In this document: positions 1 through 4,274 of the stretch, piece by piece
Layout of the letters: each line of letters begins with the position of its first letter
Position numbering within the stretch: the first letter of the stretch is position 1
Origin: Syntrophomonadaceae bacterium
GTDB lineage: Bacteria > Bacillota > Syntrophomonadia > Syntrophomonadales > Syntrophothermaceae
Direction of reading: 5' to 3'
DNA length: 40,253 nt
NCBI GenBank assembly: GCA_012719535.1
Contig: JAAYAC010000057.1
Coordinates: forward strand, 1 to 40,253
Notes under the pieces: model-generated
What the model saw: the letters and a program-made list of their open reading frames with translations, nothing else
The model's database searches: none
Told to the model about the DNA's origin: nothing
Made by a program: the position numbers and the translations under genes

Positions 1-239
1 AAAGCGCTGTTGTCCGAGCCGGTGGCAATCAGGGCATTGAATTTCTCAACGGCCTCCGCGGTTACCTTGCCCTTTTCCACCGCCTTCCCCCAGGCTTTGT
101 TCATGCTATTAACCGCTTTTTCCACGGCGCCGGGGACCACGACCACCAGAACCACCTTATATCCTGCTTCAGCACTTACCTGGGCGATACCCGCTCCCAT
201 CGTGCCGGCTCCCAGGACTCCGATTTTCTTGATATCCAT
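1..239 (-). CDS. hbd: 3-hydroxyacyl-CoA (3-hydroxybutyryl-CoA) dehydrogenase, N-terminal part
   Basis: Seventy-nine codons are present; the gene runs off the left edge. The protein opens MDIKKIGVLGAGTMGAGIAQ, the GxGxxG dinucleotide-binding loop of the 3-hydroxyacyl-CoA dehydrogenase family. These enzymes oxidise 3-hydroxyacyl-CoA with NAD in beta-oxidation, or run in reverse in butyrate formation. The ATG at 237-239 follows a strong AAGGAGG site. After the first Rossmann strand the usual acidic 'RD' that binds the NAD ribose is not seen; the strand reads KVVLVVVVPGA. A sigma-54 promoter lies about 200 bases upstream, so the gene is probably activator-controlled. Family is clear; substrate is inferred. 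Confidence 0.85.
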   Translation of the reverse strand, partial: MDIKKIGVLGAGTMGAGIAQVSAEAGYKVVLVVVVPGAVEKAVNSMNKAWGKAVEKGKVTAEAVEKFNALIATGSDNSA

Positions 240-251
240 ACAATTACCTCC

Positions 252-317
252 TTAATCACAGACTACCGTGGACTTAACGATTGTGTTGTGATAAACTAAG
301 ATGGTGTATGGTGTCAA
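252..317 (-). CDS. possible 21-residue leader peptide upstream of hbd
   Basis: A TTG codon at 315-317 lies five bases after GGAGG. It opens a 21-codon frame whose TAA (252-254) sits directly before the hbd ribosome site. The peptide begins MTPYTILVYHN and ends TVVCD. It lies inside the approximately 200-base leader made from the sigma-54 promoter. It could be a translated leader that couples to hbd, or the end of a lost gene. No family is recognised. Confidence 0.25.
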   Translation of the reverse strand: MTPYTILVYHNTIVKSTVVCD

Positions 318-413
318 AATCACCTCCCCCGGGGTTTTTTGGGATGCGTGTGGTAAGCGAAAGACCCGGGAAGCTAGCAATAAAGCTATCTTCTCGGACT
401 TTAGACGAGGAAT

Positions 414-433
414 GTACACTCCAAGACGTGTAC
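414..433 (-). promoter_or_regulatory. inverted repeat at the predicted sigma-54 transcription start
   Basis: GTACAC-N8-GTGTAC, a perfect 6-base dyad just inside the predicted start of the hbd transcript (about 437). It could be a repressor site or a hairpin at the 5' end of the RNA. The function is inferred from position only. Confidence 0.3.
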
Positions 434-447
434 TGTCTTTATATAAT

Positions 448-463
448 AGCAAGGGGCATGCCA
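448..463 (-). promoter_or_regulatory. sigma-54 (-24/-12) promoter for hbd
   Basis: On the minus strand the sequence is TGGCATG-CCCC-TTGCT. It has GG and GC exactly ten bases apart (GG at 462-461, GC at 450-449), matching the RpoN consensus TGGCAC-N5-TTGCW. It faces hbd, with the start of transcription expected near 437. The gene for a sigma-54 activator lies about 450 bases upstream, and several palindromes lie between them. Confidence 0.8.
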
Positions 464-515
464 GTTACCGCCGGGGAGGTTTTATGACCATGAAAAAGCT
501 GGTATGCCCGCTATT

Positions 516-664
516 GCGGAAATAGTTACCTTTTTCACATTATTTCCGCGAGATATAGCCCTATCGTTAAATGCGATAGTTTTTTTTGATTTATCTTTGT
601 AGTACGGCGTTTTGCAGGGTATTGCAAAACAGGAGAGGTATCGCATTTTGCGATACCTCTCCTG
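516..664. promoter_or_regulatory. cluster of palindromes, candidate upstream activator sites
   Basis: Four dyads lie 65-215 bases upstream of the -12 element, the usual range for enhancer sites of sigma-54 activators. They are 516-524/541-549 (GCGGAAATA, 16-base gap), 561-566/574-579 (CTATCG, 7-base gap), 609-616/623-630 (GTTTTGCA, 6-base gap) and 630-645/649-664 (16-base perfect arms, 3-base gap). Three share a TTGC-containing half-site related to TATCGCA/TGCGATA. The longest could instead fold as a leftward terminator, since TTTT follows it on the minus strand. Confidence 0.55.
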
Positions 665-719
665 GACGAGCCGGTCAGACCTGTACCTCTCCAATTGGTC
701 TTCCGGTTACGCAACACAA

Positions 720-744
720 AAGCCCGACCTTTACAGGCGGGCTT
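720..744 (-). terminator. terminator of the sigma-54 activator gene
   Basis: AAGCCCG/CGGGCTT arms with an inner CCT/AGG pairing form a GC-rich hairpin. On the minus strand it is followed by TTTTGTGTT. It lies about 170 bases after the activator stop codon. Confidence 0.55.
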
Positions 745-914
745 GCTGATCTCTTCAGTTCTGATTCCGCAGAAGGACGTTTCGTCGGCAATTACCCGTG
801 AAATTGAGCAGAGATTTGATAAAGGGTGGATGGTGTTGCGGTAGAATCAATTCTAATAATGCCAATGGCGAATAGCTGGTTTCAGCAGCAATAACACGTT
901 TTGCCAATATCGTT

Positions 915-2393
915 TTAGCCCAGATTATACTTCTTCAGCTTCCGGTACAGAACCGACCCATGCAACCCCAGGACTTTGGCGGTCTGGGACTTGTTGTGGC
1001 TGGTTTCCTGGAGCACCCTTCTGATCATCTCCTTTTCCAGCTTCTCCACCGCCTGAGCGAGGGTTTCCTCACCCCTGTGGCTCAGCACTTGCTCGAGGGC
1101 TGTCTTCTGTAGCGACGGAAAGTGCCGGGCCATGAGACAGGTTTCATTATTCAGGTCCGCCAGGTTAATGGCTCTTTCGAGCAGGTTTTCCAGCTCCCGG
1201 ACATTACCGGGCCAGTGGTAGCTACGTAACAGGTCCAACGCTTCCTGAGAAACCTTCTCTACACCGGTATTTAAACGCTGGTTGAGCCGGGGCAGCAGGT
1301 TCTTCACCAAGGCCGGTATATCATCCAGCCTTTGCCGGAGAGGTGGAATGTCCAGAACCACCACATTCAGACGGTAGAAAAGGTCCTCCCGAAACTTCCC
1401 CTGTTCAACCATTTTTTCCAGGTTGCGGTTGGTGGCTGCTATAACGCGCACATCTACCCGGACAGGCTTGGTTCCCCCTATCCTTTCGATCTCCCTTTCC
1501 TGCAGTACTATCAGTAACTTAGCCTGCATGCCCAGGGGCATATCCCCGATTTCGTCAAGGAAAATCGTTCCCCGGTTGGCCAGTTCGAACTTGCCCGGCT
1601 TACCTCCCTTACGGGCACCGGTGAACGCACCTTCTTCATAGCCGAACAACTCTGATTCCAGCAGGTTTTCCGGCAACGCCGCACAGTTGACCCGGACAAA
1701 AGGAAAATTCACGCGCGGGCTGGCCTGGTGAATGGAATGGGCAAATAACTCTTTGCCGGTACCGCTTTCTCCCGTAATAAGCACCGTGGATCCGGTTTGG
1801 GCCAGTTGCTCGGCCATGGATTTCACCCGGACTATGCAGGGATTGTTTCCCACAATCCGCTCGAAACAATACTTCGGACTGTAGATGCTGTTCACCACAT
1901 CCTTGTACAGGGCCAGTTCCTTTTCGAGCTCGGACAGTTTGTTTACCAGTATCTGGGCGCCGGACAAATCCAGGAACAAGCTCTTGCCAACGGCTCCAAT
2001 CAACTTCCCATCTTTGTTGTATATGGGAAAACGACTCACAATAGTATCATGCCCGTTAATCGGCCAGTAGTCAGCCAGGTGTACCTCACCTGTCTCCAAA
2101 ACCCGGGGCAGTTTCGAGTTAGACGTTACCTCCAAAACGTGTTTCCCTAGAACATCCTCCCGGCGATGTCCTATCAGTTCGAGATAGGTATCGTTGGCTA
2201 CGGTGATGTAGCCTCCTTTATCCACGATCACGATGCCCATATAGGGATTCTCAATCAGCCCCCCCAATATCTGGGTAAACTCCTCAGCCCGCAGATCCTC
2301 CACGGCACCAACCCCTCCCCCAAATGAGTAATCTTTCTCAGCAGAGGTTGGCTTCGACACCTCGGGGCAAAAGTCCTTCACCCCGTTTGTCAT
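915..2393 (-). CDS. sigma-54-dependent transcriptional activator, PAS-AAA+-Fis
   Basis: 492 residues. A PAS sensor region (about 40-150) and a short helical linker precede a sigma-54 AAA+ domain (about 180-410): Walker A GESGTGKE at 208, the sigma-54-contacting GAFTGA loop at 255, Walker B GTIFLDEIGD at 275, then HWPGNVREL near 393. A Fis-type helix-turn-helix closes the protein (about 465-490). Such proteins bind palindromes upstream of -24/-12 promoters and use ATP to open the sigma-54 holoenzyme. The architecture matches PAS activators of fatty-acid and propionate catabolism in Clostridia. The start overlaps the end of the small upstream gene (TGA, then ATG 8 bases on), so the two are probably co-translated. 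The likely target is the neighbouring hbd promoter. Confidence 0.92.
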   Translation of the reverse strand: MTNGVKDFCPEVSKPTSAEKDYSFGGGVGAVEDLRAEEFTQILGGLIENPYMGIVIVDKGGYITVANDTYLELIGHRREDVLGKHVLEVTSNSKLPRVLETGEVHLADYWPINGHDTIVSRFPIYNKDGKLIGAVGKSLFLDLSGAQILVNKLSELEKELALYKDVVNSIYSPKYCFERIVGNNPCIVRVKSMAEQLAQTGSTVLITGESGTGKELFAHSIHQASPRVNFPFVRVNCAALPENLLESELFGYEEGAFTGARKGGKPGKFELANRGTIFLDEIGDMPLGMQAKLLIVLQEREIERIGGTKPVRVDVRVIAATNRNLEKMVEQGKFREDLFYRLNVVVLDIPPLRQRLDDIPALVKNLLPRLNQRLNTGVEKVSQEALDLLRSYHWPGNVRELENLLERAINLADLNNETCLMARHFPSLQKTALEQVLSHRGEETLAQAVEKLEKEMIRRVLQETSHNKSQTAKVLGLHGSVLYRKLKKYNLG

Positions 2394-2400
2394 TCTTTTC

Positions 2401-2583
2401 TCAAAGTACCTGCAGTCTCTTCAGACGGTTACGTAACATGGCGATGCGCTGTCTCAAGACCAGCATCTCCTCGCCGGCCTCAGACACACCCTGCCAGCGC
2501 CGAGCCTTGGCTTCGACCTCTTTCTCCAATTCTCCCAGCCTGCAGGCCAACCCCTTCGCCAATTCCCGAACATAACCGTCCAT
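2401..2583 (-). CDS. small coiled-coil protein upstream of the activator gene
   Basis: 60 residues from the ATG at 2581-2583, which has an AAGGAGG site; a longer frame upstream has no such site. The sequence is almost all charged helix (RLGELEKEVEAKARR, then LRQRIAMLRNRLKRL) with heptad-like leucines, so a short coiled coil is likely. It ends 8 bases before the sigma-54 activator start, so the two genes should share a transcript. No family is recognised. An antagonist or partner of the activator is possible but unproven. Confidence 0.6.
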   Translation of the reverse strand: MDGYVRELAKGLACRLGELEKEVEAKARRWQGVSEAGEEMLVLRQRIAMLRNRLKRLQVL

Positions 2584-2713
2584 ACTCGTTTCCTCCTTGA
2601 AGCCTTTTCGGTTATTATTGCCAGAAAACCGTTTAAACTTTACGCCTATTCGGCCCGTGACGGGGATTTCATGGCCAATGGTATTGGGCAAAGCCTGCGA
2701 AATCCGGGCATAA

Positions 2714-2746
2714 AAAAACCGGGGCTTTAACCCGGCCCCGGTTTTT
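2714..2746 (-). terminator. terminator of hpt-guaA
   Basis: AAAACCGGGGC and GCCCCGGTTTT pair around a short loop and run into a T tract on the minus strand. The hairpin begins at the guaA stop codon. Confidence 0.85.
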
Positions 2747-4274
2747 ATTCCCACTCAATCGTCCCCGGCGGTTTGGAGGTAATATCGTAGGCTACCCGGT
2801 TGACGTGCCGCACCTCGTTGACAATGCGGCGGGCAATTATATCCAGTAACTCATAGGGCAGCCGAGCCCAGTCCGCCGTCATAGCGTCATCGCTCACCAC
2901 CGCCCTCACTATAATAGGATAGGCATAGGTCCTTTCGTCCCCCATTACCCCAACGCTCCTTACGGGGGGCAACACAGCGAAATACTGCCATATGTCCCTG
3001 TCCAGTCCGGCCCTGGCTATTTCCTCGGTTACAATGGCATCCGCTTCTCTTAATATCTCCACTTTTTCGCGGGTAACCTCTTCCAGCACCCGGACCCCCA
3101 ACCCGGGTCCCGGGAAAGGCTGCCTCCAGACGATTTCGCGCGGTAACCCCAATTCCTCGCCGATACGGCGTACTTCATCCTTAAACAGCAGCCGCAGAGG
3201 TTCAATAAGTTCAAACTGCATGTCCTCCGGCAGGCCGCCCACATTATGGTGGGTCTTGATGGTCGCCGCCGTCTTGGTACCGCTCTCCACAACATCAGGA
3301 TACAGGGTGCCCTGTACCAGGAAATCGACCTTGCCGATACGGGCGGCTTCTTCCTCGAACACCCTTATGAACTCGCGCCCTATGATCTTCCTCTTCGCTT
3401 CTGGGTCCCTTACCCCCGCCAGCCTGTCCAGGAACCTGTCCCGGGCATCCACCTGAACCAGGTTCATGTTTCTCTCATCCCGAAAAGTCCTGACCACCTG
3501 CTCGGGTTCTCCCTTGCGCAGTAAGCCGTGATCCACGAAAACACAGGTGAGTTTATTACCCACCGCCCGGTCTACCAGGGCTGCCGCCACCGAAGAGTCC
3601 ACTCCACCGCTCAAGGCACACAGGACTTTCCCGTCCCCGACCCTTTCCTGGACTTCACTGACCGTCCGGGTGATAAAATCAGCCAGGTTCCAGGTTCCCC
3701 GGCACCCGCATATATCAAACAGAAACTTCTTCAGTATCTCATTACCCAGAGGTGTGTGCTTGACTTCCGGGTGGAACTGTACCCCATAAAGCTTACGCTC
3801 AGGATTACTCATAGCGGCTACCGGACAGTCCGGGGTCCGGGCGATAACGTTGAAGCCTTCCGGCACCCGGGTTATCGAATCCCCGTGACTCATCCAAACC
3901 TGCATCTTAGGTTCTAACCCGTGAAAGAGGGGATCCGGGGCGGTCTCCACGAAAGTCTTACCATATTCCCGAATCTGGGCCGGGCTTACTTCTCCCCCCA
4001 ACTGAAAGGCCATCAGCTGCATGCCGTAACAAATACCCAGAATGGGCAAACCCAGGTTAAAGATGCCCGCATCGCAGGCCGGGGCGTCGGGAAGATAGAT
4101 ACTGGCAGGACCTCCCGAGAAAATCAACCCGCGCGGGTTCTTTTTCACTATGTCAGCCAGGGGCGTGTCGTAAGGAACCATCTCACTGTAGACCGCCAGT
4201 TCCCTGACCCTTCTGGCAATCAACTGGCTGTATTGGCCACCAAAATCCACAACCAGGACTAATTCCTGTTCCAT
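2745..4274 (-). CDS. guaA: GMP synthase (glutamine-hydrolysing)
   Basis: 509 residues from [20 protein letters not shown], the standard length. It converts XMP to GMP with glutamine and ATP. The N-terminal class I glutaminase shows the nucleophile motif GICYGMQ and FHPEV. The PP-loop ATP pyrophosphatase is seen as [12 protein letters not shown], and the C-terminus is the dimerisation domain (KPPGTIEWE). The frame is open further upstream, but family alignment favours the ATG at 4272-4274, which lies just after a run of nine G on the minus strand and has only a weak ribosome site. It follows hpt by about 20 bases and is probably co-transcribed. Confidence 0.96.

Follow-up and report, generated by a model that had tools for sequence, protein, structure and literature searches.

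The window, the whole stretch of 40,253 nucleotides that was analyzed, begins within a gene for 3-hydroxybutyryl-CoA dehydrogenase (hbd), and the gene of a sigma-54 activator reads toward it. A sigma-54 promoter and four palindromes lie between the two genes (palindrome centers are given relative to the predicted transcription start):

3..239, minus strand: 5' end of hbd, the proposed target; start at 239, cut by the contig start
245..255, minus strand: ribosome-binding site of hbd, TTAAGGAGGTA, read from the sequence
448..463, minus strand (463 to 448): sigma-54 promoter with -24/-12 elements, TGGCATGCCCCTTGCT, a perfect fit to TGGCAYGNNNNTTGCW
516..549: long-loop dyad GCGGAAATA...TATTTCCGC, 9-bp arms, 16-nt loop, center about -96; the least certain operator
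561..579: palindrome CTATCGTTAAATGCGATAG, 6-bp arms, 7-nt loop, center about -133; second copy of TATCG-N7-CGATA, with T8 beside it on the plus strand
609..630: palindrome GTTTTGCAGGGTATTGCAAAAC, 8-bp arms, 6-nt loop, center about -183; half-site TATTGCAAAA
630..664: distal palindrome, 16-bp perfect arms, 3-nt loop, center about -210; core TCGCATTTTGCGA at 641-653
720..744, minus strand: likely terminator of the activator gene, a stem-loop followed by TTTTGTGTT, between this gene and the palindromes
915..2393, minus strand: sigma-54 activator (enhancer-binding protein) of 492 aa, PAS - AAA+ (GAFTGA) - Fis-type HTH according to Pfam

The 79 visible residues of hbd match 3-hydroxybutyryl-CoA dehydrogenase models and agree at 67% with the hbd product of a related genome, G062. 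Because the contig end cuts hbd, the operon of the window had to be inferred. In G062 the operon comprises hbd, crotonase (crt), acyl-CoA dehydrogenase (bcd), a butyryl-CoA:acetate CoA-transferase-like gene and thiolase. G030 harbors hbd-crt-bcd-CoA-transferase-thiolase, assigned by sequence likeness, and G031 contains hbd, crotonase, CoA transferase and thiolase. This content fits acyl-CoA metabolism, the target function proposed in an earlier note on this DNA. The bacterium looks like a syntroph living on butyrate; if its relatives are syntrophic butyrate oxidizers, the operon would function in this process.

The element TGGCATGCCCCTTGCT agrees without mismatch with the GG-N10-GC form TGGCAY-N5-TTGCW of -24/-12 promoters. 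Genome-wide, 19 perfect matches to TGGCAYGNNNNTTGCW were located in the 2.49-Mb assembly, compared to about 1.2 expected from base composition. Both results bear out the sigma-54 promoter that the earlier note had placed before hbd, and the same kind of element precedes hbd in relatives. The earlier note had also made its proposal depend on an rpoN gene, and one was found in the genome (PF04552, E 1.4e-60, G000:C172). From the -12 C at position 449 the transcription start is predicted at 437, in agreement with the position given earlier, and the hbd leader, counted from 437, is predicted to span about 198 nt. A hairpin-forming inverted repeat, GTACAC...GTGTAC, is positioned in this leader at 414-433, beginning 4 nt past the predicted start.

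All four dyads described previously were recovered at exactly the positions listed above, and the array exceeds what shuffling produces. When the 300-bp region was dinucleotide-shuffled 2000 times, a 16-bp arm and a set of three dyads with arms of at least 8 bp were never obtained (0/2000 each), and six dyads with arms of at least 6 bp occurred once (1/2000). The 40-kb window contains two inverted repeats with arms of at least 12 bp and a loop of at most 6 nt, of which 630-664 is the longest by far. Weak sigma-54-like matches are common, as shown by 62 genomic sites with up to one mismatch to the pattern versus 31 for a reversed control, and this would favor reading the region as a lone match beside ordinary inverted repeats that came together by chance. 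However, the excess of perfect matches (19 versus 1.2), the excess of dyads over the shuffles and the conservation of the arrangement in six relatives make such a coincidence extremely improbable.

With both strands counted, 501-664 contains five copies of the hexamer TATYGC, compared to 0.18 expected from the window-wide rate, and this number was reached in 0/2000 shuffles. The idea that the dyads have TTGC-bearing half-sites in common was right in substance as far as the sharing is concerned, but the unit is TAT(C/T)GC, and TTGC is present in only two of the five copies. A single TTGC half-site was rejected as the code; what recurs is TATYGC, and the core that is conserved reads TYGCA-N3-TGCRA. 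One half-site, TATTGC at 512-517, merely overlaps the edge of dyad 516-549. The full conserved core is found in one of the four dyads, 630-664, which is the best-supported candidate operator. Dyad 561-579 repeats the outer half-sites of 630-664 around an imperfect core and is a weaker copy. At 609-630, the minus-strand sequence CGATACCTCTCCTGTTTTG aligns at 17/19 positions with G062, where the palindrome following it differs. Dyad 516-549, for which no counterpart was noticed in the relatives, is the weakest candidate. The genome contains four copies of the outer pattern TATCG-N7-CGATA, versus about two expected, and two of the four lie in the array; when one mismatch was allowed, the genome-wide count of this pattern was near background (71 versus 55 for the control). 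No RNA family or riboswitch was found in window positions 1-3000. As competitor sequences for window 448-670, TATCGCAAAATGCGATA and TCTCAAATTGAGA were named.

The order activator gene, sigma-54 site and hbd recurs in G062, G030, G031, G032 and G033. A chemoreceptor-like gene (711 aa) with its own sigma-54 site is located between activator and hbd in G060, and in G040 the genes past the sigma-54 site are thiolase and CoA transferase. The activator adjoins the array in seven genomes, and its orthologs share 60-75% identity. In the activator tree, which was calculated without G032 (removed by the motif filter), the proteins of the window, G062, G060, G030, G031 and G033 form one clade with a support of 1.000, and G040 falls outside. 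The putative activator-operator-promoter set is conserved across several genera.

At least one exact copy of the core, written as TYKCA-N3-TGMRA, is present in each of the eight promoter regions linked to an activator gene and in a second hbd promoter of the window's genome, on contig C189. The corresponding shuffle means of 0.002-0.010 per region are descriptive for all regions except G033, because those regions helped to define the pattern. The pattern was written from the other promoters, and G033 was fetched only after it had been fixed; this region contains two exact matches versus a shuffle mean of 0.006. The window core, TCGCAAAATGCGA, recurs as an identical 13-mer in G033, which harbors TTGCAATATGCAA as its other core. 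The remaining cores are TCGCAATTTGCAA in G030, TTGCAAAATGCAA in G031, TTGCAAAATGAAA in G032, TTGCAAATTGAAA in G040, TCTCAAATTGAGA in G062 and TCTCATTTTGAGA, in two copies, in G060.

In genome-wide searches, the core proved to be nearly confined to the activator-hbd locus. The whole genome of the window contains one match to TYGCAWWWTGCRA, at 641-653 within dyad 630-664; with this single site, no wider regulon of TYGCA-N3-TGCRA was found in that genome. All five exact matches to GTYGCAWWWTGCRAC in the G030-G033 genomes are located at the activator-hbd locus. The related pattern TCTCAWWWTGAGA precedes hbd at two of two sites in G060 and at one of two in G062, and two of its three sites in the window's genome lie before other hbd copies (C189 and C173). 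The earlier proposal of one regulator with a readable operator code was upheld in part: the core recurs at the promoters, but it reads TCGCA in the window and TCTCA in G062 despite identical recognition helices (LHGSVLYRKLKKYNLG) in the two activators. This indicates that the operator code is not simple, and an attempt to match recognition-helix residues directly to operator class failed on this pair. The TCGCA/TCTCA split despite the same helix represents a small, testable specificity problem.

Operator-like palindromes were also found outside the hbd promoters. In G030 (C68, about 31.8 kb; L193 about 1490-1660), a one-mismatch site and a neighboring inverted copy are positioned upstream of a sigma-54 site and a chemoreceptor gene, which is likely a second target in this genome. 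Because of these palindromes, and because a chemoreceptor gene lies between activator and hbd in G060, the comparison suggests that chemotaxis and butyrate oxidation may be co-controlled.

The dyads might instead be terminators or attenuator hairpins, as the T8 following 561-579 on the plus strand, the strong RNA fold of 630-664 and the occurrence of cores within hairpins ahead of T-runs in G033 and G031 would suggest. However, no plus-strand gene is transcribed toward 561-579, a T-run is absent in G060, at C189 and at one G031 site, and G030, G032 and G062 possess a separate terminator hairpin. Moreover, a terminator does not require that a loop-proximal core be conserved across genera. A role as terminators or attenuators rather than operators is thus very unlikely. 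A combination of both functions is conceivable, in which an intrinsic terminator separating the activator gene from the target operon would have the operator core as its loop-proximal part. A single palindrome would then terminate transcription at the RNA level and act as an enhancer at the DNA level. The exact core TCGCAAAATGCGA of G033 is located about 13 nt past the activator stop codon in a perfect hairpin followed by T5, and the second core of this genome also lies in a perfect hairpin before T5. One core in G031 shows the same arrangement, and the window shows a weaker likeness, a 16-bp hairpin followed by T4. The remaining core sites have an A-run 5' of the site or no run. This dual role is a tentative and rather doubtful proposal; if it is true, activator binding could also alter read-through from the activator's own gene.

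The protein encoded beyond the array was described in the earlier note as a PAS-AAA-Fis activator, and the Pfam domains PF13426, PF00158, PF25601 and PF02954 (Fis-type HTH, residues 449-489) were identified in it. It also harbors the AAA+ motifs GESGTGKE at residue 208, GAFTGA at 255 and DEIG at 280. These domains and motifs indicate that it should act with sigma-54. Among the solved PAS sequences closest to that of the activator are the PAS domain of CitA and a further histidine kinase; this likeness does not point to a particular ligand. Between guaA and the activator gene lies a coiled-coil-like ORF of 60 aa, preceded by a good ribosome-binding site (window 2401-2583, minus strand), and a 44% relative of it occupies the same place in G060.

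The window's genome encodes 16 full-length sigma-54 activators, among them a 65% paralog of this protein on contig C165, and one of these could bind the palindromes in place of the neighboring gene product. The C189 hbd operator is of the TCTCA type, the class that accompanies the closest activator ortholog (G062), which would fit a non-cognate neighbor. Against this, the array adjoins the activator in seven genomes, such operators occur in G031, G032 and G033 only at the activator-hbd locus, and one exact GTYGCAWWWTGCRAC site in G032 lies upstream of the activator gene itself. No operator was found upstream of the window's activator gene at up to one mismatch. Binding by another activator is unlikely on balance, and the array very likely serves to bind the product of the adjacent activator gene.

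In regulation of this class, activator dimers bound at an upstream activating sequence (UAS) form a ring upon a signal to the PAS domain, contact the closed complex by looping and open it with ATP. The promoter, the array with its conservation and confinement to the locus, and the activator domains are established by sequence and comparison. We consider it highly probable that an hbd-led operon for butyrate beta-oxidation has its sigma-54 promoter and its UAS or enhancer in 448-664 and is run by the neighboring PAS-AAA-Fis protein. For the binding and looping, the signal and the direction in which the operon is regulated, we infer the following course. The PAS-AAA-Fis protein would bind dyads that lie about 100-210 bp ahead of the start and have the core TYGCA-N3-TGCRA, here inside TATCG-N7-CGATA. 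Its PAS domain would receive a signal, perhaps a fatty-acid/acyl-CoA or redox cue, upon which the activator would oligomerize. The oligomer would reach RNA polymerase-sigma-54 at 448-463 through DNA looping, and the promoter would be opened at about 437 at the expense of ATP. By these comparisons the control region is real, well-formed and conserved; it is ordinary in kind and represents a new example of a known gene switch.

To our knowledge, the switching of beta-oxidation genes in syntrophic butyrate oxidizers has been little studied. The present locus offers a concrete candidate set of activator, operator and promoter for butyrate oxidation, and in one genome a chemoreceptor gene appears to be a further target. 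No operator for syntrophic butyrate oxidizers was found in the literature searched, to which most subscription journals did not belong. For Clostridium, it has been published that AhcR and CrbR exert sigma-54 control over operons containing hbd (PMC6615313), in a study that does not mention Syntrophomonas. These systems share with the window a sigma-54 promoter and a UAS before hbd-containing butyryl-CoA genes, the UAS lying mostly 100-250 bp upstream. However, their UAS is TGT-N10-12-ACA, which does not occur between the activator gene and the -24 element of the window, whereas the array carries the TYGCA-N3-TGCRA core. In addition, their hosts are butyrate or butanol producers, whereas the relatives of the window look like butyrate oxidizers. 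Among the NCBIfam models, PrdR (NF041552) fits the activator best, aligned over residues 34-490 (PAS-AAA-Fis). An assignment as PrdR was rejected, as the score of 455 bits falls far short of the 795 bits set as the cut-off for this family; the target also differs, hbd versus proline reductase. PAS/sigma-54 regulators such as Swol_0456, one of them seen only on butyrate, have been reported for Syntrophomonas wolfei, and the available part of that report proposes no operator or target for them (PMC4324140). Judged from position only, Swol_0456 would be the 63% homolog at G043:C1:535880.

Further hbd copies occur in the same genome. The window and contig C189 (L117) begin at the same hbd base and are identical at 238 of 239 positions up to the ATG (1-239 in both), where their similarity stops, each having a separate sigma-54 promoter. 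Two hbd operons have probably been collapsed here by the assembly, and the absence of differences in the first 141 bases is consistent with a k-mer break. The sole difference, at window position 142, replaces Asp by Val at residue 33 of hbd, a position presumably held by the Asp for NAD-ribose binding in the 3-hydroxybutyryl-CoA dehydrogenase family; a variant, an error or a decaying copy could each account for it. A third promoter of the C189 type (351 bp, 99%) is located on contig C173 (L124 2222-3310). The hbd frame there joins 15 N-terminal residues in frame to the C-terminal part, possibly by deletion or as an assembly chimera, and is followed by a CoA transferase gene; upstream lie the end of a thiolase gene and a gene for a 610-aa acyl-CoA dehydrogenase. 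Another hbd, on contig C69 (L119 7771-8210), has a perfect sigma-54 site and several palindromes of the TAATGC...GCATTA type, which represent another operator class.
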